A stretch of DNA of 56,309 nt from Polyangiaceae bacterium (lineage in GTDB: Bacteria > Myxococcota_A > Polyangia > Polyangiales > Polyangiaceae). The stretch is taken from positions 1-56,309 of the forward strand of contig JAICQO010000036.1 in NCBI GenBank assembly GCA_025937835.1. The letters run 5' to 3'. Made by a program: the position numbers and the translations under genes. Below are positions 4,741 through 34,845 of the stretch, piece after piece; the stretch's first letter is position 1, and each line of letters opens with the position of its first letter. The notes beneath the pieces were generated by a model. The model was given only the letters and a program-made list of their open reading frames with translations. It searched no databases and was not told the origin of the DNA.

Positions 4741-5724
4741 CTAGCTCCCGAGGTCCCCCGGCTCGACGCGATTTCGGCCGCTCTTTTTGGCGCGGTACAG
4801 GGCCTTGTCCGCCGCCTCGATCAGCTCCTCGATGCCGTGCGGAGGCACGGACGGAAGTGGTGGTCCGCTACGGCGATCCGCGGCGTTCGGTTCGCCTCCG
4901 AGACAGGCTGCGCCGATGCTCACCGTGACGTGCGGAGCGACCTCGGACCCGGCGTGCGGGATCGACGACTCGATGATGGAGCGCCGGATCGAGTCGGCCA
5001 CGAGGCAGGCGCCGCTCAGCGACGTCTCGGCGAGAACTACCGCGAATTCTTCGCCGCCAAAGCGGGCGGCGAGGTCGGTCGGTCGCCGCGCTGCGCCGCG
5101 AACGGCGGCCGCCACTCGTTTCAAGCACCCGTCGCCAGCGGGGTGGCCGTAGCGGTCGTTGAAGAGCTTGAAGTAATCGACGTCGATCAGCAGCAAAGAC
5201 AGCGGGCGACCGCTGCGCTGGGCGCGCCGCCATTCGCGCTTCAGCGTCTCGTCGACGACGCGTCGATTGGCGAGGCCCGTCAGGCCGTCGGTCGAGGCCA
5301 GCGCGCGCAGCTGGTCGAGCTGATGCTTGAGCTGCAGGTGAAGCCGAACGCGTAACTCGACGCGCGGCGCGCTGATTGGCTTCGGTAGGAAATCCGCCGC
5401 GCCCAGGCCGAGGGCCCGGGTCTCGAACTCGAGATCGTCGTGAGACGTGACGAAGATCACCGGTACGTCTTGAAGCAGCGGCTCGAGCTTCAGGCGTTTA
5501 CAAAACTCGAAGCCGTTCTCTCCGGGCATCTCACTGTCGAGCAGGATAAGGTCGGGAGGTTTGTCGCGCGACAGGCGCATGGCGTCGGCGCCGCTGGTCG
5601 CGAAGCGCACGTGCTTGTAGGCGCCGAGCGCCGCCCGCAGGATCCGGATCGCCAGAGGGTCATCGTCGACGATCAGGATGTTCGCGTCCTCGAGCGCAGG
5701 GCTTGGCGCGGGGGCCAGGGTCAC
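4741..5724 (-). CDS. Receiver-GGDEF diguanylate cyclase
   Basis: 327 residues from a GTG start. The receiver domain (14-130) has phospho-acceptor Asp63 (LLDSEMPG) and Lys115 (LPKP). A helical linker (125-143) leads to a GGDEF domain (145-315) with the active-site motif GGEEF at 223-227. A classic RxxD product-inhibition site (R214-D217) lies exactly five residues before it. These residues predict an active enzyme making cyclic di-GMP from two GTP, activated by receiver phosphorylation and subject to feedback inhibition, like PleD/WspR. The REC-Hpt gene follows after 7 bp, suggesting a phosphorelay-controlled c-di-GMP switch. It is divergent from the aldonate operon. Confidence 0.9.
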   Translation of the reverse strand: MTLAPAPSPALEDANILIVDDDPLAIRILRAALGAYKHVRFATSGADAMRLSRDKPPDLILLDSEMPGENGFEFCKRLKLEPLLQDVPVIFVTSHDDLEFETRALGLGAADFLPKPISAPRVELRVRLHLQLKHQLDQLRALASTDGLTGLANRRVVDETLKREWRRAQRSGRPLSLLLIDVDYFKLFNDRYGHPAGDGCLKRVAAAVRGAARRPTDLAARFGGEEFAVVLAETSLSGACLVADSIRRSIIESSIPHAGSEVAPHVTVSIGAACLGGEPNAADRRSGPPLPSVPPHGIEELIEAADKALYRAKKSGRNRVEPGDLGS

Positions 5725-5837
5725 AGCTTCGGATCTACGTCCAGCTTCACTCCTGCATTAGGCGCGTCTTCCCACGCTACACGCTCGATTTCAGCGTGGA
5801 CAGACAGGCGGCCGCGCAGCTCCGCGGCTCGGTCATG

Positions 5838-5855
5838 CCCCTCACAATTGAGGGG
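5838..5855. promoter_or_regulatory. Perfect 7-bp inverted repeat (candidate operator) before the aldonate operon
   Basis: CCCCTCA and TGAGGGG flank a 4-nt spacer (CAAT) in the 207-bp divergent region between the diguanylate cyclase and the lactonase gene. The dyad is 77 bp upstream of the lactonase ATG. CTGACA at 5865-5870 (5 of 6 matches to a -35 box) follows 10 bp later, but I find only a poor -10. An operator for the aldonate operon is the simplest reading; a stem-loop terminator is the alternative, although no T-run follows. Confidence 0.4.
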
Positions 5856-5931
5856 TTCCCGGAGCTGACACGCGACGAGTCGGCCTTTTTCCTGCGGGAT
5901 CCGCGCACGAACTCTGGTACTGGCAGAGGCC

Positions 5932-7035
5932 ATGAAGTCGAGATGCTTCGGGGCCTTGCTGATGGTCGCCGGCTGTCGGACACCGGCACCGGCCCCCAGC
6001 GCCCCCGCGTCGCCGAGCCCGCCGCCGACCGCGCCGAGCGTTCCGCCCGCGAGCGCTCCCTCCGCCGAGCTCACCCCGACCGCGCCGCGCTTCGGCAACG
6101 TCGAGCGCTACGACGCCGGGCTTGACGCGATCGTGCCCGCAGACTGGAAGATGGAGCGCCTCGCACAGGGCTTCACCTGGGCCGAGGGACCGGCGTGGAT
6201 CCGCTCGGGCGGGTTCCTGCTGTTCACCGACGTTCCCGGCAACACGCTGCACAAGTGGTCGGAGCAAGGCGGCCTCGAGGTGTTCCTCCAGCCATCCGGG
6301 CTCGCGAACCCCGACCCGAAGCTGACACGCGAAGCCGGCCTGAACGGTCTGTTCCCGCTCGCCGACGGCAGCGTGCTCGCGGCAGATTCCGGGAGCCGCG
6401 AGGTGGTACGCCTCGACCTCACGACCAAGAAGAAGACCGTTCTCGCCGCCAAGTTCAACGGCAAGCGCTTCAGCAGCCCGAACGACGTGTGCCAGAGCGA
6501 ACAGGGCGTCACGTTCTTCACCGATCCGCCCTACGGGCTCGAGGGGATGAACGAATCGAAGGCCAAGGAGCTGGCGTTCAACGGCGTGTTCCGGATCACG
6601 AAGCAAGGCAAGGTCGAGCTGATCGACGACAAGCTCAGCTACCCGAATGGGATCGGCCTGTCCCCGGATCAGAAGACGCTGTACGTCGCCAACTGCGATC
6701 GCGAGCGGCCGATCTGGCTCGCCTATTCGCTCGACGCCGCGGGCAAGGTGCTCGGCCAGCGGATCTTCGCCGACGCGAAGGATCTCGCGACTCCAGACGC
6801 TGCGGGCGCGCCGGACGGGCTCACTGTCGCGAGTGACGGAACCGTGTTTGCCACCGGCCCGGGCGGGGTGCTGGTCCTGAGCGCCGAGGGCAAGCGCCTC
6901 GGCCGCATCTCCACCGGCAAGCCGATCGCGAACTGCAAGTTCGGTGACGACGGCAAGAGCTTGTATCTGACGAGCCACGATACGCTGGCGCGGATCCGCC
7001 TCAACGTGCTCGGCCAGGGCTTCGCTCCTCGCTAG
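5932..7035 (+). CDS. SMP-30/gluconolactonase-family lipoprotein (aldonolactonase)
   Basis: 367 residues with a very short lipoprotein signal (lipobox VAGC, Cys15), a Pro/Ala-rich linker to about residue 50, and then a six-bladed SMP-30/LRE-type propeller. Metal-ligand motifs typical of the family are present: Glu85 in WAEGPAW, Asn184 in SSPNDV, Asn239 in YPNGIG and Asp295 in APDGL. Family members hydrolyse sugar lactones such as gluconolactone or xylonolactone to aldonic acids. The lipobox places this one outside the cytoplasmic membrane. It leads a five-gene operon and is followed after 5 bp by a GntP-type permease, so it probably opens a lactone in the periplasm before uptake. Xylonolactone is inferred from the downstream enzymes; gluconolactone is possible. 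Confidence 0.85.
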   Translation: MKSRCFGALLMVAGCRTPAPAPSAPASPSPPPTAPSVPPASAPSAELTPTAPRFGNVERYDAGLDAIVPADWKMERLAQGFTWAEGPAWIRSGGFLLFTDVPGNTLHKWSEQGGLEVFLQPSGLANPDPKLTREAGLNGLFPLADGSVLAADSGSREVVRLDLTTKKKTVLAAKFNGKRFSSPNDVCQSEQGVTFFTDPPYGLEGMNESKAKELAFNGVFRITKQGKVELIDDKLSYPNGIGLSPDQKTLYVANCDRERPIWLAYSLDAAGKVLGQRIFADAKDLATPDAAGAPDGLTVASDGTVFATGPGGVLVLSAEGKRLGRISTGKPIANCKFGDDGKSLYLTSHDTLARIRLNVLGQGFAPR

Positions 7036-7040
7036 TCGCC

Positions 7041-8357
7041 GTGCAACTCTGGTTCGTCGCGCTGTCGATCGCCCTGCTCGTGATCCTGATCACGAAGGCG
7101 AAGCTGCATCCGTTCCTGGCGTTCCTGCTGACGTCCGCCTTGGCGGGCGCATTGCTCGGCATCCCGCTCTCGCACATCCCGGGGATCCTGGAAAAGGGGC
7201 TAGGGAGCACGCTCGGGCCGCTGCTCGGCATCATCTGCCTGGGCGCGATGTTCGGGAAGATCGTGGCCGAGAGCGGCGCGGCCCAGCGGATCGCGGCGGT
7301 GTTGATCCGCGCGTTCGGCACCTCGCGCATCACCTGGGCGCTGCTCTTGACCGGGTTCGTCGTGGGCTTGCCGTTGTTTTACAACGTGGGCTTCGTGCTG
7401 CTCGTGCCGCTGGTGTTCTCGATCGCGCAGCAGGCTGGGCTGCCGGCGATTTACCTCGGGGTGCCCCTCCTCGCGTCGCTGTCGATCACGCACGGCTTCT
7501 TGCCGCCGCACCCGGCGCCGACAGCGATGGTGCCGATGTTCGGCGCACGCATGGGTACGACGCTGCTCTACGGCGTGGTGGTGGCGACACCGGCGATGCT
7601 GCTGGCGGGGCCGCTGTTCGCGCGGGCCTTCCGCAACGCCACGCCGCGGCCGTTCACGATGTTCGCGCCGCCGCTGCGACCGGAGGCGGAGCTACCCGGG
7701 GCGCTCAATTGCTTCGCGACCACGCTGTTCCCGGTGGTGATGATCGCGATCTCGGCCGCGGTTCCTCCCGGGGTGGAGCCGGCCACGGCGGGCCGCGAGG
7801 CGCTCGGGTTTCTGACGAACCCGCTGGTGGTGATGCTGCTGGCTCTCGGGCTCGCAACCGTCACGCTCGGCACGTCCCGCGGGATGAAGCTGCCGGTCGT
7901 GATGGAGCACTACTCGAGCGCGGTCAAGGACGTGGCAGTGATCCTGCTAATCGTGGCCGGCGCCGGCACGCTGAAGCAGGTGCTGGTCGACAGCGGCGTG
8001 AGCAAGCAGATCACCGTCCTCTTGCAGGGCATCCCGCTGAACCCGCTGCTGCTCGGCTGGATGATCGCCGCGGTGATCCGGGTCTCGCTGGGCTCGGCGA
8101 CCGTGGCGGGGCTGACCGCCGCGGGCATCATGGCCCCCGTCGTCGCGGCCACGGGCGTGGACGGCAATCTGATGGTGCTCGCGATCGGCGCCGGCAGCCT
8201 GATGCTGTCGCACGTGAACGACTCCGGCTTTTGGATGTGCAAAGAATATTTCAATCTATCGCTGCGCGAAACCCTGCTTTCGTGGACGCTGATGGAGGGC
8301 ATCGTCGGCGTGAGCGGGATTGTCTCGGTGTTGATCCTCGACGCCGTGTTGCACTGA
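7041..8357 (+). CDS. GntP-family gluconate/aldonate:H+ symporter
   Basis: 438 residues from a GTG start, almost wholly hydrophobic with about 12-14 membrane segments. Family-typical stretches include the N-terminal LHPFLAFLLTSALAGALLGIP and SITHGFLPPHPAPTA near residue 155. In addition there are LGSATVAGLTAAGI near residue 352 and HVNDSGFWM near residue 393, matching the conserved HxNDSGFW signature of GntP transporters. Members import gluconate and related sugar acids with protons across the inner membrane. It sits between the lactonase and the catabolic enzymes, which supports uptake of the aldonate produced outside. Substrate choice among xylonate, gluconate, arabonate and galactonate cannot be read from the sequence. 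Confidence 0.9.
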   Translation: MQLWFVALSIALLVILITKAKLHPFLAFLLTSALAGALLGIPLSHIPGILEKGLGSTLGPLLGIICLGAMFGKIVAESGAAQRIAAVLIRAFGTSRITWALLLTGFVVGLPLFYNVGFVLLVPLVFSIAQQAGLPAIYLGVPLLASLSITHGFLPPHPAPTAMVPMFGARMGTTLLYGVVVATPAMLLAGPLFARAFRNATPRPFTMFAPPLRPEAELPGALNCFATTLFPVVMIAISAAVPPGVEPATAGREALGFLTNPLVVMLLALGLATVTLGTSRGMKLPVVMEHYSSAVKDVAVILLIVAGAGTLKQVLVDSGVSKQITVLLQGIPLNPLLLGWMIAAVIRVSLGSATVAGLTAAGIMAPVVAATGVDGNLMVLAIGAGSLMLSHVNDSGFWMCKEYFNLSLRETLLSWTLMEGIVGVSGIVSVLILDAVLH

Positions 8358-8381
8358 ACGAGAGAGCGGTAACCTAACGCC

Positions 8382-9200
8382 ATGTACTTGAGCCGACATC
8401 AGACTCCGCACGGTGCGCGCTGGGCGCTCGACGGCCAATTTTTGCCCGTGAGCTTCGACCTCGGCGTGCTGCTCGAGCAGCCCACGGCGACGCTGTCCGC
8501 GTTCCTCGCCGCGCTCCCACGCTCCGAAGCCGCGGAGGGAGCGCTGCTGCCGCCGGTCGAGGCGGATCAGGAAGTGTGGGCGGCGGGCGTCACGTACCTG
8601 CGCAGCCGCGAAGCGCGCGAGGCAGAATCGACGCAGAAGGACGTCTACACGCGCGTCTACGAGTCCAAGCGCCCGGAGCTGTTCTTCAAGTCCGTCGGCT
8701 GGCGCGTGGTGGGTCACGGAGCGCCGATCCGGATCCGCAAGGACAGCGCCTGGAACGTGCCGGAGCCGGAGCTCGTGCTCGTCATCAACTCGCGCGGCGA
8801 AATCATCGGGTACAGCGCCGGCAACGACGTCTCCTCGCGGGACATCGAGGGCGAGAACCCGCTGTACCTGCCGCAGGCCAAGGTCTACACCGGCTCGTGC
8901 GCGCTCGGCCCGGGTATCGTGCTCACGGCCCCGGCGACGCTGCGCGATCTGCCGGTGCAGATCGGTATCCAGCGCAACGGGCAGCGCGTCTTCGAGGGCG
9001 AGACGCGCACCTCGCGCATGAAGCGCACGCCCGAAGAGCTCGCGGGCTACCTGACGCTCGAGCTGTCGTTCCCGCGCGGCGTGCTGTTGTTCACGGGCAC
9101 GGGCATCGTGCCGCCCGCCGAGTTCACGATGCAGCGCGGCGACCTCGTGTCGATCCGCCTCGCCGAGCTCCTCTTGGAAAACGCCGTAGCCGCCGATTGA
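8382..9200 (+). CDS. Fumarylacetoacetate-hydrolase family dehydratase (likely 2-keto-3-deoxy-pentonate dehydratase)
   Basis: 272 residues with the C-terminal FAH fold. Expected metal ligands are visible: Glu128 and Glu130 in [10 protein letters not shown], and Asp149 and Asp154 in [32 protein letters not shown] follows, as in sugar-acid FAH enzymes. In the Weimberg-type pentose route the FAH member (XylX/KdxD) dehydrates 2-keto-3-deoxy-xylonate or -arabonate to 2,5-dioxopentanoate. That assignment fits here because the next gene is a dioxovalerate dehydrogenase and the operon also has an aldonate dehydratase. Other FAH enzymes (acylpyruvases, hydroxyheptadienedioate isomerases) are less consistent with these neighbours. 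Cytoplasmic. Confidence 0.82.
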
Positions 9201-9224
9201 CGCTGTAAAGGATAGGAGATCGCC

Positions 9225-10814
9225 TTGTCGCTAGAACCCGTGCTCGTCGCCGGCAGCTGGACGCCCGCCGTCGATCCTGCCGCAGAATTTTCCGCTCACG
9301 ATCCCAAGACCAAGGCCGCGCTTCCGGCGCGGTACCCGGTCTCGAGCGGCGCGGACGTCGAGCGCGTCTTCGCCGCGGCAGGCGAAGCCGTCGCTGCGCT
9401 GCGCTCGGTGTCGCACGACGCACGCGCGGAGTTTTTGGAGCGCTATGCCGAAAAGCTCGAAGGGCGCGCCAAGGAGCTGGTCGAGATCGCGGCGCGCGAG
9501 ACGGCGCTCCCCGCAGAGCCGCGCCTCGGCTCGGTCGAATTGCCGCGAACGGTCGGGCAGCTCCGTCAAGCCGCGGCCGCCGTGCGAGAACGCTCGTGGT
9601 GCCGGGCCACGATCGACAGCAAGGCCAACCTCCGGTCCCTTCACGCGCCGCTCGGCGGTCCGGTGCTGATCTTCGGCCCCAACAACTTCCCGTTCGCGTT
9701 CAACGCGGTCTCGGGAGGCGACTTCGCCGCCGCGATCGCCGCGGGAAATCCGGTGATCGCCAAGGGCCACCCCGCGCACCCCGGCACGACGAAGCTGCTC
9801 GCAGAATGCGGCGCCGAAGCCGCGCGGGCGTCGGGGATGCCGCCGGGGCTCTTCCAGCTCGTATACGGCGTCCCGAGCGAGCTCGGCGTCGAGATGGTCG
9901 CGGATCGGCGGCTCGGCGCGACGGCGTTCACGGGCAGCCGCGCCGCGGGGCTCCGGCTGAAAGAAGCCGCCGATCGCGCGGGCAAGCCGATTTACCTCGA
10001 GCTGTCGGCGAACAACCCGGTGTTCTTTTTACCGGGCGCGCTGGCCGAACGGGGCGCCGCGCTCGTCGGCGAATTGTTCGATAGCTGTGCGCTGGGAGCC
10101 GGCCAGTTCTGTACGCGCCCGGGCCTCAGCGTGCTCGTCGATGGTCCTGCCGCGGACGCGTTCGTGTCCGAGCTCAAAGCGCGCTTCGCGCAAGCGAGCC
10201 CTGGGACGCTGCTCGCCGCCGGCCTGGTGAGCGCGCTCGCGACGGATGTCGAGCAGCTCGTGCGCGGTGGCGCGCGGCTCCTTTCCGGCGGACGCGCGGC
10301 GGACAGCGAGCGCTACGCCTTCGAACCGACGCTGCTCGAGGTATCGGCGCGCGCCTTCGTCGAAAACCCGAGCCAGCTCGGCCGCGAGTGCTTCGGCACG
10401 CTCCACGTGGTGGTCCGCGCGCGCGACGCCGCGGAGCTGCTCGACGTCGCCCGCGCCTTGCCCGGAAATTTGACGGGCAGCCTCTACACCAGCGGCGCCG
10501 GCGACGACGACGCGCTGTACTCCGAGCTCGAGCCGCTCGTCCGCGACCGCGTCGGGCGCCTGCTCAACGACAAGATGCCGACGGGGGTCGCCGTGTCGTC
10601 GGGCATGAACCACGGTGGGCCGTATCCGTCGACCGGTCACCCCGGCTTCACCGCCGTGGGGATCCCGGCATCCTTCCTGCGTTTCACGGCCCTGCACTCG
10701 TACGACGCCGTGCGCCCCGCGCGCTTGCCGGAAGAGCTCCGAGACCGGAACCCCACGGGCAAAATGTGGCGCCTGCTCGACGGCGCCTGGTCGCAAGCCG
10801 ACGTCACGGGATGA
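9225..10814 (+). CDS. NADP-dependent 2,5-dioxovalerate (alpha-ketoglutarate semialdehyde) dehydrogenase
   Basis: 529 residues from a TTG start, with AGGAG (9215-9219) as a ribosome-binding site. It is an aldehyde dehydrogenase of the ketoglutarate-semialdehyde branch: cofactor loop GPNNFPFAFN (151-160), catalytic Glu259 (YLELSANNPVF), and nucleophile Cys296 in GAGQFCTRPGL. The GQFCTxPG form is characteristic of this subgroup. It oxidises 2,5-dioxopentanoate to 2-oxoglutarate, the last step of Weimberg-type sugar-acid breakdown, feeding the TCA cycle. It lies 24 bp after the FAH gene and 6 bp before the dehydratase. High confidence in the family, good confidence in the substrate from residues and context. 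Confidence 0.88.
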   Translation: MSLEPVLVAGSWTPAVDPAAEFSAHDPKTKAALPARYPVSSGADVERVFAAAGEAVAALRSVSHDARAEFLERYAEKLEGRAKELVEIAARETALPAEPRLGSVELPRTVGQLRQAAAAVRERSWCRATIDSKANLRSLHAPLGGPVLIFGPNNFPFAFNAVSGGDFAAAIAAGNPVIAKGHPAHPGTTKLLAECGAEAARASGMPPGLFQLVYGVPSELGVEMVADRRLGATAFTGSRAAGLRLKEAADRAGKPIYLELSANNPVFFLPGALAERGAALVGELFDSCALGAGQFCTRPGLSVLVDGPAADAFVSELKARFAQASPGTLLAAGLVSALATDVEQLVRGGARLLSGGRAADSERYAFEPTLLEVSARAFVENPSQLGRECFGTLHVVVRARDAAELLDVARALPGNLTGSLYTSGAGDDDALYSELEPLVRDRVGRLLNDKMPTGVAVSSGMNHGGPYPSTGHPGFTAVGIPASFLRFTALHSYDAVRPARLPEELRDRNPTGKMWRLLDGAWSQADVTG

Positions 10815-10820
10815 GCCCGA

Positions 10821-12809
10821 ATGCCGCTCGATGAATCGATCCTGGGCGGCGCCGACGGCTTCTCGCTGACGCGCACCCAAACCGCGGGGCCGCGCGGGGA
10901 GCTGCCGCTCACCGCCGAGATGTTGCTGTCCGAGCCGAGCGGCAACCTGTTCGGCATGACCCAGGACGTCGGGATGGGCGCCGATCCCGCCGACGTGAAC
11001 CGGGCTCAGTACCTGATCGTGAGCACCCAAGGCGGGCTGCGCGACGAGAGCGGCAAGCCCGTCGCGCTCGGGTATCACACCGGTCACTGGGAGATCGGGC
11101 TCTTGGTGCGAGCCGCGGCCGAGACGCTGCGCGCCGAAGGCGGGCTGCCGTTCGCCGCGTATTGCAGCGATCCCTGCGACGGCCGCACCCAGGGGACGAC
11201 CGGCATGTTCGACAGCCTGCCCTACCGCAACGACGCCGCGATCACGCTGCGGCGCTTGATCCGCTCGCTGCCGCGGCGCGCGGGCGTGATGGGCATCGCC
11301 ACCTGCGACAAGGGCTTGCCGGCGACGCTGCTCGCGCTGGCCGGCTCGAGCTCGCTGCCCGGCATCGTGGTTCCCGGCGGGGTCACCCTGCCTGCCACCG
11401 GAGCGGAGGACGCCGGCAAGGTGCAGTCGATCGGCGCGCGCTACGCGCACGGCTTGATCACGCTGCAAGAAGCGGCGACCCAGGGCTGTCGAGCTTGCGG
11501 CACGCCGGGCGGTGGTTGCCAGTTCCTCGGCACGGCCGCCACCTCGCAGGTCGTCGGCGAAGCATTCGGGCTCAGCCTGCCCCACAGCGCCCTCAGCCCC
11601 TCGGGTGAGCCGGTCTGGCTCGACCTCGCACGGCGCTCGGCGCGGGCGCTCGTGCGATTGTCGGAGCGCGGGCTCAGCCTGTCGAAGATTTTGACGCGAG
11701 CCGCGCTCGAGAACGCGATGCTCGTGCACGCGGCGTTCGGCGGCTCCACCAACTTACTGCTGCACATCCCGGCCATCGCTCACGCGGCCGGCCTCCCGCG
11801 CCCGACGGTAGCGGACTGGAAGCACGTGAACCGGCGCACGCCGCGGCTCGTCGATGCGCTGCCCAACGGACCGAGAAATCACCCGACAGTGCAGGTGTTT
11901 CTGGCGGGAGGTGTACCCGAGGTGATGCTGCGGCTGCGCGAGGCCGGGCTCTTGAACCTGGACGTGCTGACCGTGACGGGTGAGAAGCTCTCGACCGTGC
12001 TCGACTGGTGGCAAGACAGCGCACGCCGCAAGGCTTCCCGCGCCCGGCTCCGGGAAGCGGACCGAGTGGACCCCGAGCAGGTGATTTTCGGACTCGACGG
12101 CGCGCGCGCGGCCGGCTTGACCAGCACGGTGGTGTTCCCGACCGGGAACCTCGCGCCCGAGGGCTCGGTGGTGAAGTCGACCGCGATCGATCCCGCGGCC
12201 ATCGATCCCGACGGCGTGTACAGAAAGCGCGGCCCTGCCCGCGTGTTCGTGTCCGAGCGCGCGGCGATCGCGGCGATCAAGGGCCACACCGAGCGCCCCG
12301 TCCAGCCGAAAGACGTGGTCGTGCTGATCGGCGCAGGGCCGCTCGGGACGGGCATGGAAGAGACGTATCAGCTCACCTCGGCGCTCAAGTACCTGCCCTG
12401 GGGGCACACGGTCGCCGTCGTCACGGACGCGCGCTTCTCCGGCGTGTCCACGGGCGCGTGCATCGGCCACGTCGGTCCCGAGGCGCTGGCCGGCGGTGAG
12501 CTCGGCAAGCTGGTGGATGGCGACGTCATCGAGATCGAGATCGACAGGAACACGCTCGAAGGGCGCCTCGATCTGGTCGAGGCAGCCGGCGTTCGGCTCG
12601 AGCCGGGCGCGGCGGCGGCGTTGCTCGCTGCGCGTCCCATCCACCCCGAGCTTTCGCCGCATCGCGAGCTGCCGGACGACACCCGGCTGTGGGCGGCCTT
12701 GCAGCGGGCGAGCGGCGGGACCTGGGGAGGCTGCGTTTACGACGTCGATCGCATCATCGAGCTGTTGGACGCGGGGCGAGCCGCGCTGGATAAACCGCGC
12801 GACCCCTGA
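10821..12809 (+). CDS. IlvD/Edd-family aldonate (xylonate) dehydratase, YjhG/YagF type
   Basis: 662 residues, close to the usual length (about 655) of the YjhG/YagF subfamily of D-xylonate dehydratases. Shared segments recalled from E. coli YjhG are [13 protein letters not shown] near 24, FGMT near 44, [20 protein letters not shown] at 116-135, TCDKGLPAT at 161-169, [10 protein letters not shown] near 231 and [18 protein letters not shown]. Cys162 (CDK) and the 223-233 Cys cluster probably supply Fe-S ligands. The enzyme dehydrates an aldonate to its 2-keto-3-deoxy acid. In E. coli this enzyme type is paired with an aldolase; here it is paired with a FAH dehydratase and a dioxovalerate dehydrogenase. 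The stop codon is 1 bp from the stop of the convergent lipoprotein gene. Confidence 0.9.
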
Positions 12810-12810
12810 G

Positions 12811-14397
12811 CTAGCGCGTCGGCAAGAGCACGCCCGCGAAGTTGGCTCCGCCCGGGCTGACCTGGATGCAGTAGCCGCCCGCGCGCGGCTCGCCAAGCAC
12901 CACCCCATCGTCAATCTGGCACGCCGTGGGCACGCCGTTGACTCGCAGCTGCCGGTTGCCGTTGAACTCCCAGCAGACCACGCGGCGCTCCGTCTCGGTC
13001 GGGTCGTAGTCGTAGACCTCGTAGCAGTGTCCGCCGAGGCCCAGCGGCTCCATCCGGAAGCCGTCTTCGGCGAGCGTCGCCTGCTCGGGGTTGCTGCACA
13101 GGAGATCGCAGGGCGTGCGCACGCATTGACCGCCGAAGCAGTCCTGCTCGTCCCCGCACATCTTCCCGCAACCTCCGCAGTGAGCCTCGTCGGTCATCAA
13201 GGAGACGCAAGTCTGTTGGCAGTCGGTCAGACCCGCCGGGCAGCCACACATCGCGTCGATGCAGTTCAGGTTGTTCGGGCACTCGGTCTCGCAGCTCCCG
13301 CAGTGCTCCGGATCCGTGGAGGGATTGATGCACACGCCGTCGCACTCGAGATCGCCGGGGCGGCAGGTGCACTCGCCGGCGCCGCAGATCTTGCTCGCTT
13401 CACAGGAGTTGTTGCACTCGCCGCAGTGGTTCTGGTCAACGTCGAGATCGGCGCAGACTCCGTCGCAGTCGGTGGTGCCGGGCGGGCACACGCACTCCCC
13501 TTCTTCACAGACCTCGCCGTTCACGCAGGCCGTGCCGCAGCTGCCGCAGTGATCCACGCTGCTCGAGAGATCGGCGCAAACGCCGTCGCAGTTCTCGGTC
13601 TCCTCGGGGCAGATGCACTCGCCGTCCGTGCAGGTTCCACCCGTGCACGTCTGGTCGCAATCGCCGCAGTGTTTCTCGTCGCTCGTGGTGTCGACACACT
13701 CGGTGCCGCACTCGATTTCTTCGTCGGGGCAGCCGCAATCTCCGTCGACGCAGACGCCGCCCACGGCGCAGAGCTTTCCGCAGACTCCGCAGTTCGCGAC
13801 GTCGGTCTCGGTGTCCACGCACTCGGCGCCGCAGATCGTCTCGTCGTCGGGGCACAGACACTGTCCGTCGCTGCAATCGGCGCGAGGCGGACACTTCACC
13901 CCGCAGTCGCCGCAATTTTCCAGGTTGGTGAGGGTGTTGACGCAGCGACCGAAACACAGCGACTCGTCGTCCCGGCACGAGCACTCGCCTGCCTCGCAGC
14001 TCGCGCGTGCGGGACACGTCATCTGGCAGCCGCCACAGTGCGCTTCGCTGGTCAGCGGATCGATGCACTTGCCTTCGCACGACACGCCGCCGCTCTCGCA
14101 GACGGGCCCGCCCCCGCCCCCTGGAGAGAGCCCGCCGCTCGCGCCGCTGCCGCCGGAGCTGATCAGGCCGGCGCCGCCCTGAGGCGCGGCTTGGCTGCCG
14201 CCGGAGGCATCGGCGGAGCTGCCGCCGCTCCCGGGCGTGCCAGCGGTGACCGAGCCACCGGTCGCGGGCGGGGTTCCCGCGGCAGCACCGGACGAATCGA
14301 AGAGCTCGCTCTTGTCGGAGCTACAGCCGAACGCCGCGGTGCTCGCGCCAGCCAGCAACAGAGCGAGCACACCAAGCTTGCACGACCACGATCGCAT
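12811..14397 (-). CDS. Lipoprotein with eight tandem Cys-rich repeats
   Basis: 528 residues. There is a signal peptide with lipobox AFGC (Cys25), then KSELFD and a Gly/Ser-rich linker to about residue 98. Eight tandem repeats of about 40 residues follow, each of form CxxxCVxxxxxxxHCGxCxxxCxxxxxCxxGxCxCP (residues 107-425). A separate 100-residue C-terminal domain with a few Cys ends in a beta-strand-like VLLPTR. The repeats are EGF/disulphide-knot-like, so this should be a rigid extracellular stalk. Proteins of this kind are abundant in Sorangium-type genomes and I recall some carrying misleading tryptophan-synthase-alpha labels; there is no TIM barrel here. Function unknown; probably surface structure, binding or adhesion. 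Confidence 0.8.
   Translation of the reverse strand: MRSWSCKLGVLALLLAGASTAAFGCSSDKSELFDSSGAAAGTPPATGGSVTAGTPGSGGSSADASGGSQAAPQGGAGLISSGGSGASGGLSPGGGGGPVCESGGVSCEGKCIDPLTSEAHCGGCQMTCPARASCEAGECSCRDDESLCFGRCVNTLTNLENCGDCGVKCPPRADCSDGQCLCPDDETICGAECVDTETDVANCGVCGKLCAVGGVCVDGDCGCPDEEIECGTECVDTTSDEKHCGDCDQTCTGGTCTDGECICPEETENCDGVCADLSSSVDHCGSCGTACVNGEVCEEGECVCPPGTTDCDGVCADLDVDQNHCGECNNSCEASKICGAGECTCRPGDLECDGVCINPSTDPEHCGSCETECPNNLNCIDAMCGCPAGLTDCQQTCVSLMTDEAHCGGCGKMCGDEQDCFGGQCVRTPCDLLCSNPEQATLAEDGFRMEPLGLGGHCYEVYDYDPTETERRVVCWEFNGNRQLRVNGVPTACQIDDGVVLGEPRAGGYCIQVSPGGANFAGVLLPTR
13123..14079 (-). repeat. Coding region of eight Cys-rich tandem repeats
   Basis: About 120 bp per unit, eight units, in frame inside the lipoprotein gene. 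The units are strongly diverged in DNA while the Cys spacing is kept. This indicates old duplications under protein-level selection rather than recent slippage. Confidence 0.7.
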
Positions 14398-15414: not shown

Positions 15415-16686
15415 TCAGTTCGCGTCGATTTCCCGAACACTGAACCACTTGTAGCGAGCCTCGGTGACGTCGGTGTTGCGAACGAACGCGGTGCCTCCAT
15501 CGACGATCACCATCTCCGACTCCCCGCCGCTCGGAGCGTGCTCGGAACAACCGGTCTCCACGGACCAATCGCCGTCGTCGACGGTCTGGTTCATCAGCAC
15601 CCAGTCGCCGCCGCCTTCGCCCTCGGTGAGATCGCGGTACGCCTCGAGCTGGACCGCGTCGCCGGACGGCAGGTTGTAGATCACGAATTTCCAGCCGATC
15701 CAGCGGTCGAACGGCAGCTCGCCGTCGGGCGGCCAGACCGTTTGCGGGTTCACGCGAGAGCGCGTGCTGCTCGCGGGGTGCTCGAGCTCTTTTTCGAAGT
15801 CGATCGCGCCGTCGTGGCGGAGCCGTGCGTAGTAAGTGTGCGCGTCGCAGGCGTTCGAGTCGGTGTGCCCGTCCTCGCCGCTGCGCACGCCGACGACGAG
15901 CCCCGCGTAGGCGGTCGCGGCGTCCTCGACTCGCCGGTAGTACACGGTGAGCTCCACGTTTTGCCAGGGCCCGCCCGAGCCGGGATACACGTAGATGCGC
16001 GGCTGGCTTCCGCCCATCACGAGCTCTCCGCTTTCGTTGACCTCGACAGAACCCTCGCCGCGCATGCCCGATAGTCCGAGCGGATCGTGATCGTCCGTGC
16101 GGCCGTCGATCTCGTAAGGCCCTTCGTTCCAGTGCTCGGACGTCCACTCGGATGCCGGGCTCGCCGAGGGGTAAAGCTCGGTGATGCCGAACGGATCGAC
16201 GCCGCCGCTCTCGCCGCCGGCGCCCGGATCCGAGTCACCCGCTCCGCCACCCGAGCCCGCGGTGCCGCCCTTGCCCGCGTCACCGCCGCTGCCTCCCTCC
16301 TCGGAGCCGCTACCTCCGTTGCCCGCGCTGTCTGGCGATGCCCCCGCGCCGGCCGCGGCCGCTCCGCCGCTCGACGCGCGGCCCCCCGTCGAACCGCACC
16401 TTCCGCCGCTGGTCGCGCCGCCGCCGCCGCGGCTCGGGCTGGCTCCGCCGCCCGCGGCCTGAGTTTGCCCGCCGCTGCCGCCGCTGTCTCCCGGGGCGCC
16501 TCCTCCGGGCTTGCCGCCGTTCTCGGCGCCGGAGCCACCCCCGCCCGCCCGCGCGCCGCCACCGCCACTCGTCGCCGGCGCCCCGGCGCTGGTCTCCGCG
16601 GCACCGCCGTCGTCGTCGCCGCAGGCAGAAAAAAGCGAAAAGCACAGGCCCAGGCAGGTAAAGCTCGAAATCCGGCGAGAGGGCAT
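15415..16686 (-). CDS. Lipoprotein with Gly-rich linker and putative jelly-roll domain
   Basis: 423 residues. Signal peptide with lipobox FSAC (Cys22), an acidic GDDDGG stretch, then an extreme Gly/Ala/Ser linker to about residue 165. The C-terminal 255 residues form a beta-rich domain with aromatic strands (PRIYVYPGSGGPWQNVELTV, RWIGWKFVIYNL, RYKWFSVREI). I read this as a concanavalin-A/LamG-like jelly roll that may bind or cleave polysaccharide, but no family signature is certain. The same architecture (lipobox, Gly-rich spacer, folded domain) recurs at 887, 16841 and 24041. Function inferred only as extracellular binding. Confidence 0.68.
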   Translation of the reverse strand: MPSRRISSFTCLGLCFSLFSACGDDDGGAAETSAGAPATSGGGGARAGGGGSGAENGGKPGGGAPGDSGGSGGQTQAAGGGASPSRGGGGATSGGRCGSTGGRASSGGAAAAGAGASPDSAGNGGSGSEEGGSGGDAGKGGTAGSGGGAGDSDPGAGGESGGVDPFGITELYPSASPASEWTSEHWNEGPYEIDGRTDDHDPLGLSGMRGEGSVEVNESGELVMGGSQPRIYVYPGSGGPWQNVELTVYYRRVEDAATAYAGLVVGVRSGEDGHTDSNACDAHTYYARLRHDGAIDFEKELEHPASSTRSRVNPQTVWPPDGELPFDRWIGWKFVIYNLPSGDAVQLEAYRDLTEGEGGGDWVLMNQTVDDGDWSVETGCSEHAPSGGESEMVIVDGGTAFVRNTDVTEARYKWFSVREIDAN

Positions 16687-16840
16687 ACCGCAGAGGAACC
16701 CCGAGCTTACCGAAAAAGCTCAACGTTTCCTTGCACGGCGCTGCCTGGAAGACGCCAGTGCTTGTGGCGACCGGGGACGTTCTGTAAGGAGCAGGGATCG
16801 CGCGATTGGTTGGGTGATCGCGAGCGACAGGAGCAGTAGC

Positions 16841-18997
16841 TTGAACGACTCAGTCGGTTGGTGGAGACGAACTCGGGGAGCGCTGACGGCAGCGGGCCTT
16901 TTGCTGTCGGTGGTGCTGTCTAGCGGCGGGTTTGCGGGGTGCGTCGTCAAGCAAGGCGACGACGACGCGACGGGCGGGACCAAAGCTCGTCCGACTCTGC
17001 CGGAGGCCGGCGAAACCGGCGCCGGCGCAGAGCCAGGCGAAGGCGGCGCTCCCTCGCGCGGCGGCACGTCGAATCAGGGTGGCGACGACCGCGGCGATGC
17101 CGGGAGCCCCTCGACGGGCGGGACGTCGAACGGCGGCGGCGGCACGGTTGGCGGAGCCCCGGGAGACGGCGGCGGCAGCGGCGGCGGTGGCGGTCTCGGC
17201 GACGGGTCCGGCGTCAAGGGCGCCGTGTCCGGGAGCTGGACCTATCTCGTGTACATGCTGGCCGACAACGATCTCGAGCGCTTCGCGCTCCAGGATCTCG
17301 AGGAGATGATGGTGGTCGGCAGCGGCGGCAAGCTGACGATTCTGGCGCAGGTCGATCGCGCCATCGGCGAGTCGAGCCTGCCGGTCGGCGGCCTCTCGGA
17401 CTTCACGACGACCAAGCGCGTGCGCGTGGACGAAAATGAGCTCGTCGAGCTCGAAGACATCGGCGAGACCAACATGGGTCAGAGCGCGACGCTCGCGGAC
17501 TTCTTGCAGTGGGGCATCGAGACTTCGCCGTCGGAACACTACGCGGTGGTCTTCTGGGATCACGGCGCGGCGTGGCCGCAGTTCGGGCTCGATTTCTCCG
17601 CGGGCACCGACGGCCTGAGCTTGCCCGAGCTGGTGAAGGGGCTCGACGACGGCGCCGCCGCCGGCAAGCTGCAGGGCCCGTTCGACTTCGTCGGCTTCGA
17701 CGCGTGCTTGATGGCAAACTGGGAGGTCGGCGTGGCGCTGCAGAACCGCGCCCGCTACCTGCTCGCGTCCGAAGAGGTGGAACCCGGTCACGGCTGGGAC
17801 CACAGCTCGATCGCTTTGCTCAAGCAGGGCGCCGAAGCGAGCGCGCTCGGCGAGGCGCTGATCGAGGGCTACCGCGATCAGGCGACCGACGCCGGCACGC
17901 TGGCCCGCGTCACGCTGTCACTCACCGATCTGTCGAAGATGCCGGCGGTGAACGCAGCCCTCGGAGCCCTCGGCACGGCGCTCGAAGCCGACATGGCCTC
18001 GCACGCCGTGGCAATCGGCAAGAGCCGAGCCGGCTCGCCGACGTTCGGACAGATCCCGGGCGCGTCGTCGTCCGAGATGACGGATCTCGCGATCTTTGCC
18101 CAGAAGCTCGGGGAGTTCGACTCGAGCCTGAGCAGCCAGGTGTCGGCGCTGCGCTCGGCGATCTCGAGCGCAGTGGTCGAAAAAACCGCAGGCACCGCGC
18201 AAGCCTCGAACCTCGGAGGGCTCTCGATCTATTTCCCCCCGACCTCCGACGGCTACCGCAACAACTACGACCAGCTCGAAGGGATCTCCGACTGGCGCAG
18301 TTTGTTGAGCTCGTTCTACACGGCGGCCAGCGAGAACACGAGCTCGTCGCCCGTGTTCACGAACCCCGACAAGCTCGCGGACGTGACCGTGCTCAGCGAC
18401 GGCCTCCTCGTAGAAGGTCAGCTGCAGCAGGGCTCGTACGAGAACCTGACTACGGCGCTCATCTATACGGGTCTGTTCGAAGGGGACAGCGGCATCTTCC
18501 TCGGCGAGGAGCAGGCCTCGGTTTCGGACACGGGGCTCGTCTCGGCCACCTGGGACAAGACCGTGTTGTTCCTGACTCAGGACGGCGTGTCGGACTTCGG
18601 CTACTACTCGATCGAAGCTGCGGGCGACGACGCGTTCACGCTCTCGGTGCCCCTCAAATACCGCGAGGGCGACGAGGAAATCGACGCAGTGCTGATGCTG
18701 GCCTTCGACCTCACGGGCACCGTGCTCACTCAGGGCCTGTACGCGCCGACCGAAGATTCGTGGGCCGAGCTCGTGCCCGCCGAAGGCTCCCGGGTCGCGC
18801 CCGTGGTTCCGATTCAGCTCGGGGACAGCGATGATCTAGAATGGTTGCCGCTGGCCACGGAGTTCGATGCGTCGACGCTCACCGAAATCGATCTCGAGTT
18901 CCTGGAGCTCGATGCGGGCACCGAGGTATTCGTGGCCCTCGTCGCGCAAGATTTCGCTGGAGAAGGCGACACCGTGAGCGCCGTGGGGAACCTATGA
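16841..18997 (+). CDS. Clostripain-family (peptidase C11) lipoprotein
   Basis: 718 residues from a TTG start at 16841, chosen because AGGAG at 16829-16833 sits 7 nt upstream and it gives a proper signal peptide; GTG at 16814 is an in-frame alternative. Lipobox FAGC (Cys34) precedes a Gly-rich linker to about residue 125. The C11 protease domain follows, with WTYLVYMLADNDLE near residue 133, the catalytic His241 in FWDHGAAW and Cys289 in GFDACLMA, then SEEVEPGHGWDHS. Clostripain-like enzymes are Cys endopeptidases with a preference for Arg/Lys. The last 250 residues form a beta-rich C-terminal module. Its TGA overlaps the ATG of the next lipoprotein gene by 4 bp, so the two are probably translated together. 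Probably a cell-surface protease. Confidence 0.87.
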   Translation: MNDSVGWWRRTRGALTAAGLLLSVVLSSGGFAGCVVKQGDDDATGGTKARPTLPEAGETGAGAEPGEGGAPSRGGTSNQGGDDRGDAGSPSTGGTSNGGGGTVGGAPGDGGGSGGGGGLGDGSGVKGAVSGSWTYLVYMLADNDLERFALQDLEEMMVVGSGGKLTILAQVDRAIGESSLPVGGLSDFTTTKRVRVDENELVELEDIGETNMGQSATLADFLQWGIETSPSEHYAVVFWDHGAAWPQFGLDFSAGTDGLSLPELVKGLDDGAAAGKLQGPFDFVGFDACLMANWEVGVALQNRARYLLASEEVEPGHGWDHSSIALLKQGAEASALGEALIEGYRDQATDAGTLARVTLSLTDLSKMPAVNAALGALGTALEADMASHAVAIGKSRAGSPTFGQIPGASSSEMTDLAIFAQKLGEFDSSLSSQVSALRSAISSAVVEKTAGTAQASNLGGLSIYFPPTSDGYRNNYDQLEGISDWRSLLSSFYTAASENTSSSPVFTNPDKLADVTVLSDGLLVEGQLQQGSYENLTTALIYTGLFEGDSGIFLGEEQASVSDTGLVSATWDKTVLFLTQDGVSDFGYYSIEAAGDDAFTLSVPLKYREGDEEIDAVLMLAFDLTGTVLTQGLYAPTEDSWAELVPAEGSRVAPVVPIQLGDSDDLEWLPLATEFDASTLTEIDLEFLELDAGTEVFVALVAQDFAGEGDTVSAVGNL

Positions 18998-19815: not shown

Positions 19816-21933
19816 GTGCCTCCGGAAGCCGACGAGAAGCCGCCCGTCGCCGGGCCGTCGGTATTTGCCCGGCCGAAGCGGGCGCTGCCGAAAGATTCTC
19901 CGCTCACGCCGACGGGTCAGAGCTCGCCGGGCTGGAAGCGCCATTCCACTGCCGCGATGATCGCGATCGCCGGGTTGGCGGTCAGCATCGCGGCCGCCGC
20001 CGTGGCCAAGCGCGGAGAGGCCAATCGGAGCCGAGAGGCCTTCGAGCGGCGCGCGGGCGACCTGGCAGCGGTGGTGGCGCGCAACTTCCAGCTGACGCGC
20101 GAGGTCGTGCTTTCACTGCCCGCCTTCTTCGAGGCCTCGATCGTGGTGGAGCCGCGCGAGTTCACGACCTTCGTGCGACCGGCGCTGGAACGCCACCCGA
20201 GCCTCGCCGCGCTCGAGTGGGCGCCACTGGTGCGCGACGAAGACCGCGCATTCTTCGAGCAGAAGATCCGGGGAGAGGGCTATTCGAGCTTCGAGATCCG
20301 CGAGCCCGATGCGACCGGCGCCATGGTGCGTTCGCCGAAGCGACCGCTGTACCTGCCGCTCGCGTTCCTCGAGCCCGCGGTCGAAGAGGTGCGCGGGCTC
20401 GAGCTGATGTTCGAGCCCGTGCGAGCTCGTGAGATCCAGTCCGCGATCGACGAGGGGGAGCTGCACGTCTCGCTGCGCTTCCGCCTGGTCGAGGATCCCG
20501 AGGGCGTGCACTCGGTCGCCGTTTACGCGCCCGCCTACGACCCGATCCGCCCGCTCCACACGCCGGCCGAGCGCCGCGCCAGCTTGCTCGGCCTGGGTGT
20601 CGCGCTGTTCCGGCTGCGCCCGCTGATGGACAGCGCGCTATCGCGCGAGCCACGCGAGGGCATCGCGCTCGCGTTGATCGACGCCGAGGCGCCGAAGGCT
20701 CTACAGCTGCTCTACGAGACCGAGCCCGGGGTCGCCGCGCGCGTCCAAGGCTCGACCCTGAGTTATCGCGAGAGCTTCGATTTCGCGAACCGCCGCTACA
20801 CGGTGCTGACCGTGACGGAAGAGGCGAAAACCTACACCCATTGGTTGGTGTTCCTGTTCGGCGTCGGGCTGACCGGCATCGCCACGGCCGTCTATTTCAC
20901 GTTCGCGATGCTGCGCAACTTGCGGCGCAGCGTCGAGCGCAGCATCAACCTGGGCCAGTACACGCTCGAAGAGAAGATCGGCGAGGGTGGCATGGGCGTC
21001 GTGTACCGCGCCACGCACGCGCTGTTGCGGCGCCCGGCGGCGATCAAGCTGCTGCTCAAAGAGAGCGCGAGCGAAAACGATCTGGTGCGCTTCGAGCGCG
21101 AGGTCCAGCTGACGAGCCGCCTCGCGCACCCGAACACGATCTCGATCTTCGACTACGGCCGAACGGCGGACGGCGTCTTCTACTACGTCATGGAGTACCT
21201 CGACGGCGTGGACCTCGAGCGGCTGGTGCAGAAAGACGGCCCGCTCGACCCGGGTCGTGCCATCCACGTGCTCGCGCAGGTGGCCGGGGCGCTCGCCGAA
21301 GCCCACCTCTCGGGACTGATCCACCGCGACATCAAGCCCGCCAACATCGTGCTCACCGAGCGCCTCGACGAGCCCGACGTGGTCAAGGTCGTGGATTTCG
21401 GGCTCGTGAAGACGGTGGAGCAGGCCTCGGGCGACATCGGCATCACGCAGGTGAACTCGATCACGGGCACGCCGCTGTACCTGGCGCCGGAGGCCATTCA
21501 ATCGCCCCAGAGCGTGGACGGGCGTGCCGACATCTACGCGCTCGGGGCCGTCGCCTATTTCATCCTCACGGGTGAGCACGTGTTCGACGGCTCGACGGTC
21601 GTGCAGGTGCTGACCCGTCACATGCTGGAGCAGCCGGCGCCGCCGTCTGCGGTGCTCGGGCGGCCGATCGCGAAGGACCTCGAGGCCGTGATCCTGTCGT
21701 GCCTCGCCAAGGAGCGCAGCCAGCGGCCGGCGTCCGCTGCCGAGGTTCGCGACGCGCTGCTCGCCTGCGCCGACGCCGCGCGCTACGACGCCGAGGCCGC
21801 GCGTGGCTGGTGGCGCGAGCGCGGCGCGGTCCTCCGCACGACGGCCCGCGTCCAGACGCAAGGCGCGCCGCACGCAACGACGATGAAGGTCAACGTCTTC
21901 GACCGGCCCCTCGCGGATACGACTCCCGGATAG
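19816..21933 (+). CDS. CHASE-domain transmembrane Ser/Thr protein kinase
   Basis: 705 residues from a GTG start. A cytoplasmic N-tail leads to a membrane helix (about 45-64). An extracytoplasmic region of about 275 residues has CHASE features: ALEWAPLVRDEDRAFFE (132-148), RPLYLPLAFLEP near 176-187, and ELHVSLRFRLVEDPEGVHSVAVYAPAYDP near 215-243. A second membrane helix lies at about 342-366. A complete Hanks-type kinase follows: GEGGMG 389-394, Lys411, HRDIKPAN 503-510, DFG 527-529, APE 557-559. It should phosphorylate Ser/Thr in response to a small ligand sensed outside. CHASE domains are best known on histidine kinases and cyclases, so this pairing is notable. It is convergent with a sigma-associated membrane protein gene. 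Confidence 0.85.
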   Translation: MPPEADEKPPVAGPSVFARPKRALPKDSPLTPTGQSSPGWKRHSTAAMIAIAGLAVSIAAAAVAKRGEANRSREAFERRAGDLAAVVARNFQLTREVVLSLPAFFEASIVVEPREFTTFVRPALERHPSLAALEWAPLVRDEDRAFFEQKIRGEGYSSFEIREPDATGAMVRSPKRPLYLPLAFLEPAVEEVRGLELMFEPVRAREIQSAIDEGELHVSLRFRLVEDPEGVHSVAVYAPAYDPIRPLHTPAERRASLLGLGVALFRLRPLMDSALSREPREGIALALIDAEAPKALQLLYETEPGVAARVQGSTLSYRESFDFANRRYTVLTVTEEAKTYTHWLVFLFGVGLTGIATAVYFTFAMLRNLRRSVERSINLGQYTLEEKIGEGGMGVVYRATHALLRRPAAIKLLLKESASENDLVRFEREVQLTSRLAHPNTISIFDYGRTADGVFYYVMEYLDGVDLERLVQKDGPLDPGRAIHVLAQVAGALAEAHLSGLIHRDIKPANIVLTERLDEPDVVKVVDFGLVKTVEQASGDIGITQVNSITGTPLYLAPEAIQSPQSVDGRADIYALGAVAYFILTGEHVFDGSTVVQVLTRHMLEQPAPPSAVLGRPIAKDLEAVILSCLAKERSQRPASAAEVRDALLACADAARYDAEAARGWWRERGAVLRTTARVQTQGAPHATTMKVNVFDRPLADTTPG

Positions 21934-27103: not shown

Positions 27104-27105
27104 GC

Positions 27106-27468
27106 TCAGTCCGCGCCCGGGCCCGGCTGTTGCCCGAGCTTCAGACGCTCCGTCAGAGCGTTGCTGAGCTCTGCATCGCCCGAGCCGCGCAGCGCCCCGC
27201 TCGCCTCGGCCGCGCTCGGCTGCACGAGCTCCGAACCGCCAAGCGCTGGTTCGACCTCCGTCGCACTGCCGGGCTCGAGGAACGCATCGACCGAGCCCCG
27301 CGCCGCACGGACCTGGGTTTTTTCGCGCGGAGCGCTCGGCGTCTGAAGAACGCTGGCTGGCGGCGGCGTCAGCTCGGCGCAGCCGAACGATTGAACCCCG
27401 CCCAACAGGGTGAAGACCCACGCCGCCCGCGCGGCGACCGACGCGCCGCTCGTGAATGACGAAAGCAT
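27106..27468 (-). CDS. Small Pro/Ala-rich lipoprotein
   Basis: 120 residues from the ATG at 27468, chosen because AGGAG lies 8 nt upstream and it gives a plausible signal peptide. The lipobox is SFGC (Cys30), and the mature part of about 90 residues is disordered-looking and rich in Pro, Ala, Ser, Glu and Gly. A longer upstream reading frame lacks these features. No family recognised. It sits in reverse orientation between two sensor kinase genes. Confidence 0.55.
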   Translation of the reverse strand: MLSSFTSGASVAARAAWVFTLLGGVQSFGCAELTPPPASVLQTPSAPREKTQVRAARGSVDAFLEPGSATEVEPALGGSELVQPSAAEASGALRGSGDAELSNALTERLKLGQQPGPGAD

Positions 27469-27621
27469 CCGTGGATCTCCTGCGCTCGAATCGAGCAAGG
27501 TGCATGCCCGTGTTTGCCCGAGCTCGCCGCGCCAAGAACCGTCGTCGAACCGGCGGCGCACCGCGCCGAAGCGACGAACCAGACGCGAGGCATACGCGCC
27601 GCGCGAACCCGCCTCGGACGG

Positions 27622-27651
27622 GGCTATTTGCTACGCGAATTGCGGCTATTT
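27622..27651. promoter_or_regulatory. Two GGCTATTT direct repeats 22 bp apart
   Basis: GGCTATTT occurs at 27622-27629 and 27644-27651, on one DNA face about two helical turns apart, 88 bp before the MEDS-kinase ATG. TGTCAA at 27656-27661 (TTGACA on the minus strand) follows, but has no good -10 partner. Candidate regulator sites in the 270-bp divergent region 27469-27738. Confidence 0.3.
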
Positions 27652-27738
27652 CCCGTGTCAACACGCAGCGACGACGGTACCCTCGAGGCTCTGTCGCGAG
27701 CTTCGTTCGCCGTCGAAACGCGACACGAGAGGATCCCG

Positions 27739-31116: not shown

Positions 31117-31463
31117 AGCGCGTGCTGATCGTCGAAGACGAGCGGGATCTGCTCGACTCGCTCCAGGAGTTCTTCGAAGACGAAGGGTTCGCGGTGCAGA
31201 CCGCGAACAACGGCGCCGAAGCGCTTTCGCTGCTCGACGCGGAAGAGCTCCCGCAGGTGGTGTTGCTCGATCTGACGATGCCCGTCCTGGACGGAAACGA
31301 GCTCTACGCGCGAATGCGCTCCGAGCCGCGCCTGGCAGGCATTCCGGTGATCGTCTCGACCTCCGACCCCTCGCGGGCACCCAGTGGGGTGCTGATCATG
31401 AAGAAACCCGTCAATCTGAACAGTTTACTCGGCGCCGTTCAGAGCCATTGCCAGAGCGGGTGA
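31113..31463 (+). CDS. Single-domain response regulator
   Basis: 116 residues from a GTG that overlaps the kinase stop codon (GTGA), so translation is coupled. A complete receiver: acidic pair at 8-9, phospho-acceptor Asp53 (LLDLTMPVLDG), Thr/Ser around residue 83, and Lys98 in KKP. It has no output domain, so it acts through protein contacts or as a phosphate shuttle to an Hpt protein such as the one encoded at 3702. The upstream MEDS kinase is its probable phosphodonor. Confidence 0.92.
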   Translation: MKRVLIVEDERDLLDSLQEFFEDEGFAVQTANNGAEALSLLDAEELPQVVLLDLTMPVLDGNELYARMRSEPRLAGIPVIVSTSDPSRAPSGVLIMKKPVNLNSLLGAVQSHCQSG

Positions 31464-31520
31464 GGCAGTTCGCCACGGGGGCTTCGCTCCGCGAGCACCC
31501 GCGATAGAATCGCCGACCCT

Positions 31521-34798: not shown

Positions 34799-34845
34799 AA
34801 AATGTGCCGCGGCGCCGGTTTCGCGCGCTGCTACTCTGTTCGGCA

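Follow-up and report, generated by a model that had tools for sequence, protein, structure and literature searches.

A five-gene operon of a Polyangiaceae bacterium predicted to lead D-xylonolactone and D-xylonate into the Weimberg pathway

The five-gene run and its protein families

The window analysed here is the whole 56,309-nucleotide stretch of contig JAICQO010000036.1 (Polyangiaceae bacterium, assembly GCA_025937835.1). Five genes of the plus strand fill positions 5932-12809 of this window, and together with their immediate surroundings they are arranged as follows:

4741-5724, minus strand: GGDEF response regulator, the divergent upstream neighbour
5725-5931: divergent intergenic region, the expected site of the operon promoter
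5932-7035, plus strand: SMP-30/gluconolactonase-family (SGL) lactonase, predicted lipoprotein (Pfam SGL, 142 bits)
7041-8357, plus strand: GntP-family aldonate:H+ symporter, GTG start as called (Pfam/NCBIfam)
8382-9200, plus strand: FAH-family protein, predicted 2-keto-3-deoxy-D-pentonate (D-xylonate/D-arabinonate) dehydratase (FAA_hydrolase, 66 bits)
9225-10814, plus strand: aldehyde dehydrogenase (ALDH), predicted 2-oxoglutarate semialdehyde dehydrogenase, TTG start as called (Aldedh, 174 bits)
10821-12809, plus strand: YjhG/YagF-family IlvD/EDD dehydratase, predicted to act on D-xylonate (TIGR03432)
12811-14397, minus strand: Cys-rich MXAN_6577-like protein with six STIG1-type stretches, the convergent downstream neighbour (Pfam/NCBIfam)

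Gene content and order have been observed directly: all five open reading frames have been confirmed at these coordinates and assigned to families, which bears out the five-gene run at 5932-12809 proposed in an earlier, sequence-only reading of this DNA. Calculated from the ORF coordinates, the gaps between the genes amount to 5, 24, 24 and 6 bases, and the third-position GC of the five ORFs ranges from 0.86 to 0.93. Since the upstream neighbour is divergent and the downstream neighbour convergent, the co-directed run consists of exactly these five genes. The MXAN_6577-like family of the downstream neighbour points to a myxobacterial host. A promoter scan of the region 5725-5931 upstream of the operon has returned no sigma-70-like site, and neither a sugar-use regulator nor a glycosidase adjoins the operon among the annotated neighbours. 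According to the Pfam and NCBIfam assignments of all five proteins, the operon itself encodes no sugar dehydrogenase for the free sugar and no aldolase, as had also been claimed earlier. The five genes hence include neither the xylose dehydrogenase gene of a xylXABCD-type operon nor the 2-keto-3-deoxy-pentonate aldolase that stands beside the dehydratase in Dahms-type loci.

Further along the window, a protein of 828 aa that contains a clostripain (Peptidase_C11) domain is encoded at 16511-18997 (plus strand), and a protein combining a CHASE sensor domain with a Ser/Thr kinase domain, resembling a receptor-like eukaryotic-type kinase, at 19816-21933 (plus strand). Three large multi-sensor histidine kinases with PAS, GAF and MEDS domains follow one another at 24713-34190 (plus strand), and after this run lies a Ser/Thr kinase at 34804-36207. 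A short-chain dehydrogenase at 41978-42805 (plus strand) is found 29 kb from the operon; nothing indicates that it is a xylose dehydrogenase, although it may be one.

The lactonase begins with MKSRCFGALLMVAGC, which is followed by a Pro/Ala/Ser-rich stretch, and the lipobox VAGC at residues 12-15, read by eye, predicts a lipoprotein. Among solved structures, 3e5z and 3dr2 are closest to it, and E85, N184 and D295 are residues that we take to bind the metal; lactonases of the SGL family have a broad substrate range. The GntP permease passes TIGR00791 with 463 bits against a cut-off of 293. The dehydratase passes the curated model TIGR03432 (1077 bits, cut-off 808) and is 63% identical to YagF and 60% identical to YjhG of E. 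coli, both of which carry the name D-xylonate dehydratase. The alignment has shown C119, C162, C233, D163-K164 and S540 to be common to these three proteins; judged by IlvD/EDD structures, the cysteines presumably hold the cluster, D163-K164 would be the DK motif, and S540 the catalytic serine.

Among solved structures, the FAH-family protein is closest to 2q18, the 2-keto-3-deoxy-D-arabinonate dehydratase of S. solfataricus (177 bits), followed by 9kkt with 76 bits. Its residues E128, E130 and D149 align with positions 143, 145 and 164 of the S. solfataricus enzyme, which are given as metal ligands in a passage of PMC9795676, so that the ligands are kept; position 164 is Asp in the aligned 2q18 chain, whereas that passage writes Glu164. 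We have accordingly predicted the protein to be a D-2-keto-3-deoxypentonate dehydratase.

The ALDH has 1eyy and 3v4c as closest solved relatives, and its Cys296 (in GQFCT) and Glu259 (in LELSAN) are presumably the catalytic residues. It scores under the cut-off in all 25 NCBIfam models shown, out of 39 matching, with a best score of 108.5 bits against the cut-off of 750 for DioxValDhHalo and 96 against 770 for GucD, and thus stays below equivalog level. Consequently, its role is deduced from its subgroup and from the genes around it; it could be another kind of aldehyde dehydrogenase and is the weakest link of the pathway reading.

Recurrence and distribution of the FAH-ALDH-YjhG block

YjhG relatives have been collected from genome_contigs, and the 80 loci considered here are the best 80 of 563 confirmed, a sample that favours close relatives of the YjhG protein of this operon. 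At 1e-20, an FAH gene has been found in 38 of these best 80 of 563 loci and no FAH match in the other 42, and in 12 of the 80 less than 3 kb of sequence lies upstream of YjhG. ALDH at 1e-60 is present in 19 of the best 80 of 563, FAH and ALDH together in 16, and, at 1e-20, GntP in 16 and SGL in 8. The order FAH-ALDH-YjhG on one strand has been observed in 11 of the best 80 of 563 loci, which belong to Luteimonas, Pseudoxanthomonas, Rhodanobacter, a Verrucomicrobiae bacterium and two Planctomycetota MAGs, while six further loci of this sample carry FAH directly before YjhG. Paenibacillus loci (L057, L062, L070) also have the FAH-ALDH-YjhG order, but with an ALDH that is only ∼25% identical. All five gene types are found in 3 of the best 80 of 563 loci, all of them from Luteimonas (L023, L046, L053), and their lactonases bear lipobox-like signals, again read by eye. 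GH3 and GH43 genes, the latter with a beta-xylosidase-type C-terminal domain, lie near the block in L023, and GH3 and GH10 genes near that of Rhodanobacter (L021), which serves as a pointer to xylan-derived xylonate. With YagE and YjhH as queries, an aldolase of their type has been found at 1e-5 in none of the best 80 of 563 loci, a count that applies to these 80 and not to the whole family, and that may miss distant aldolases. Used as queries, these aldolases have themselves recovered the two E. coli loci contained in that database.

The same order is present in one of three loci examined in relatives, namely in the same-family genome G026 (L107), where the ALDH shows 42% identity over part of its length; YjhG is missing from the second locus (L106), where FAH and ALDH are present, and the third (L108) has FAH alone. 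A sugar-type ABC importer (Peripla_BP_4, ABC ATPase) follows the block of L107 in the place of GntP. A further block of this order resides on the Deinococcus peraridilitoris plasmid pDEIPE01. There, a TRAP transporter and FadR-type regulators occur instead of GntP, and transposase and integrase genes are near. The sequence-only reading had implied a peculiarity in the combination of a YjhG-type dehydratase with an FAH/dehydrogenase tail, which has not found support: as the block recurs in several phyla, the pairing of YjhG and FAH is not an oddity. A chance line-up of the operon genes has been rejected for the same conservation of gene order.

Of 59 related genomes, 13 contain a match to the FAH protein (P0003) at 1e-3, and in 4 of the 59, own genome included, it is a strong one (E < 1e-70); the genus has 7 further members, none of which has a match. 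Throughout a phylum sample of 282 genomes, in some of which at most nine first-look candidates were scored, the own genome is the only one with a match at 1e-40, so that close FAH homologues are rare in this sample. An FAH tree of 41 rows places the window protein in a 17-row group with an SH-aLRT of 91, below the 95 mark, together with rows of Chloroflexota, Planctomycetota, Verrucomicrobiota and Xanthomonadales. L106, a locus from the family of the window, falls into this group too; the exact position of the window protein within it is not settled. The patchy distribution is likely due to horizontal acquisition, and repeated loss may be an alternative source of it.

Route, substrate and source of the xylonate

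Taken together, we consider it probable that the five genes form an operon through which D-xylonate and D-xylonolactone enter the Weimberg pathway, in a cell whose xylose is oxidised outside the cytoplasm, most likely by its own PQQ-dependent enzyme. For the catalytic steps, the substrate and the source of the xylonate we infer the following sequence of events. D-xylose released from xylan would undergo this extracytoplasmic oxidation, for which the most likely enzyme is a PQQ-dependent aldose dehydrogenase of the cell itself, with its gene at another place in the genome; neighbouring cells would possibly contribute. The lipoprotein lactonase would open D-xylonolactone, and GntP would bring D-xylonate into the cell with protons. 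A YjhG-type dehydration of D-xylonate and a second dehydration by the FAH protein would then give the semialdehyde, which the ALDH would oxidise to 2-oxoglutarate. As the closest solved relative of the FAH protein is a D-2-keto-3-deoxypentonate dehydratase and its ligands are kept, the reading that we prefer is a conversion of D-xylono(lacto)nate to 2-oxoglutarate, and the five-step chemistry from lactone to 2-oxoglutarate, already outlined in the sequence-only reading, appears well supported by the families and the conserved neighbourhood.

Regarding the source of the xylonate, both other cells and a periplasmic dehydrogenase had been named, and either may apply. The own genome assembly (6.9 Mb, 227 contigs, 95.8% complete) has been searched for two sugar dehydrogenase families, Gcd and PF07995. 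A Gcd-type membrane glucose dehydrogenase (TIGR03074) has no match in this genome. The cut-off of PF07995, the family of PQQ aldose-dehydrogenase homologues, is passed by four proteins, of which two, at 464 and 432 bits, are strong matches. When translation is started at an internal ATG, the N termini of both strong proteins are lipobox-like. One of them (L002) has been compared with solved structures, among which the glucose dehydrogenase 7cdy and 2g8s come closest. Such homologues need not oxidise xylose, and six ORFs near the two strong genes include no sugar-metabolism family. PqqE is over cut-off in the own genome (506 vs 381 bits) and in none of 14 control genomes, and GH10 has six matches over cut-off, so that own periplasmic oxidation of xylose is possible.

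These matches bear directly on the reading of the operon as a scavenger's, according to which a cell without own xylose oxidation feeds on the lactone and aldonate that other organisms release. Such a cell would need a lipoprotein lactonase and a GntP importer, and both the operon without a dehydrogenase and the genome without a Gcd-type match are consistent with it. Against this stand the two strong lipobox-like PF07995 proteins, PqqE and the six GH10 matches, and the genome may also encode xylose dehydrogenases beyond the two families searched, such as further PQQ or flavin enzymes or cytoplasmic ones of the SDR and GFO type. Based on the PF07995 homologues, PqqE and GH10, we rate xylonate made by the cell itself no less likely than scavenged xylonate, and we regard a purely scavenging life as a possible but less probable alternative. 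Going further, one may postulate a horizontally moving, self-contained aldonolactone-feeding module without an own dehydrogenase, which seems doubtful to us. It would join a lactonase on the cell surface to a proton symporter and to a cytoplasmic dehydration route ending in 2-oxoglutarate, and would use oxidised sugars released by other xylan degraders. Besides the preferred Weimberg reading with own PQQ-dependent oxidation, a parallel isomerase route for xylose may exist, as a xylose isomerase fragment at C109:2945-3109 covers the first 55 positions only (77 bits, under cut-off) and reaches the end of the 3110-base contig. This is likely a truncated xylA, the remainder of which has not been found in the own assembly.

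As to the substrate, the stereochemistry of D-xylonate and D-arabinonate is such that both yield one and the same 2-keto-3-deoxy-D-pentonate (D-KDP). The D-KDP dehydratases (D-KdpDs) studied in PMC7374468 are all annotated there as FAH family and prefer D-KDP, and the L-KdpDs it describes belong to the DHDPS family. With FAH-family D-KdpDs and a common D-KDP product, the operon suits D-xylonate or D-arabinonate and not L-arabinonate, whose pathway has been rejected since the operon has no DHDPS-family member. A gene set meant for D-arabinonate, or for broader D-aldonates such as gluconate and galactonate, rather than mainly for D-xylonate would agree with the shared intermediate, with the naming of the closest solved FAH relative for D-arabinonate, with the gluconate-type family of GntP and with the breadth of SGL lactonases. 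We nevertheless hold it to be rather unlikely, because YjhG and YagF are named D-xylonate dehydratases, GH3, GH43 or GH10 genes accompany the block in L021 and L023, and by its chemistry a Weimberg tail is unable to bring a hexonate to 2-oxoglutarate.

Highly improbable is a function of the FAH protein as 2,4-diketo-acid hydrolase of a KDP oxidation/hydrolysis pathway: such FAH-family hydrolases exist, and the L-2,4-diketo-3-deoxyrhamnonate hydrolase 8gsr matches weakly (E 8e-4), but this match reaches 22 bits vs 177 to the Sulfolobus dehydratase, the 2-keto-3-deoxy-acid dehydrogenase that the pathway requires is missing from the operon, and its products would give the ALDH no obvious role. 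Aldol cleavage of the Dahms type has been rejected as well, the operon being without an aldolase.

Comparison with known pentonate systems

The Caulobacter crescentus operon, the classic one of the Weimberg pathway, combines the FAH-type XylX, the 2-oxoglutarate semialdehyde dehydrogenase (KGSADH) XylA, the IlvD/EDD dehydratase XylD and the lactonase XylC with a cytoplasmic xylose dehydrogenase, XylB, and is not known to include a GntP. The present operon is alike in the first four roles and differs by XylB there and GntP here. The name xylXABCD for the Caulobacter operon is found in PMC6475665.

A parallel in pathway terms has been described for Pseudomonas taiwanensis VLB120, in which Gcd in the periplasm, xylonolactonase, an importer (GntP or PVLB_18545), XAD, KDXD and KGSADH act in succession (PMC11252243). 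Likened by this pathway description, both systems would share periplasmic oxidation, lactone hydrolysis, xylonate import, two dehydrations and KGSADH. By the locus-tag numbers given there, gntP and the two lactonases are placed apart from the dehydratase cluster, whereas here all genes form one five-gene run, and the dehydratase and oxidase are named XAD/XylD and Gcd, in contrast to the YjhG-type dehydratase and the lack of a Gcd match found here. As P. taiwanensis oxidises xylose in the periplasm and its GntP can import xylonate according to the same source, the missing dehydrogenase of our operon is not without parallel. Clusters of xylD, xylX and xylA with an FAH-family XylX and a transporter have also been reported in PMC10107873 for P. 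putida isolates.

The E. coli loci yjhFGH and yagEFGH, which are Dahms-type, resemble the operon in their YjhG/YagF dehydratase, and yjhF, a GntP relative (38%), adjoins yjhG there as GntP accompanies the dehydratase here; they have the aldolase YjhH or YagE where the present operon has FAH dehydratase and ALDH. Also similar are the loci of Luteimonas, Pseudoxanthomonas and Rhodanobacter with the same enzymes, the same FAH-ALDH-YjhG order and an adjoining GntP. The latter is located after YjhG (before FAH in L076) and SGL on the other strand, and two Pseudoxanthomonas loci (L036, L056) have no ALDH match; a lipoprotein-like SGL is shared by the three Luteimonas loci, and glycosidases are near in two annotated loci.

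Our understanding of the Weimberg pathway is unchanged by the operon. Its enzymes offer alternatives for xylose-to-2-oxoglutarate engineering, and the recurrence of YjhG/YagF dehydratases, which stand beside aldolases in E. coli, in Weimberg-type FAH/ALDH blocks of several phyla helps to annotate the neighbours of YjhG correctly. The operon is essentially an ordinary example of the Weimberg route, and relative to the Pseudomonas systems it adds the five-gene packaging and the YjhG-type dehydratase.
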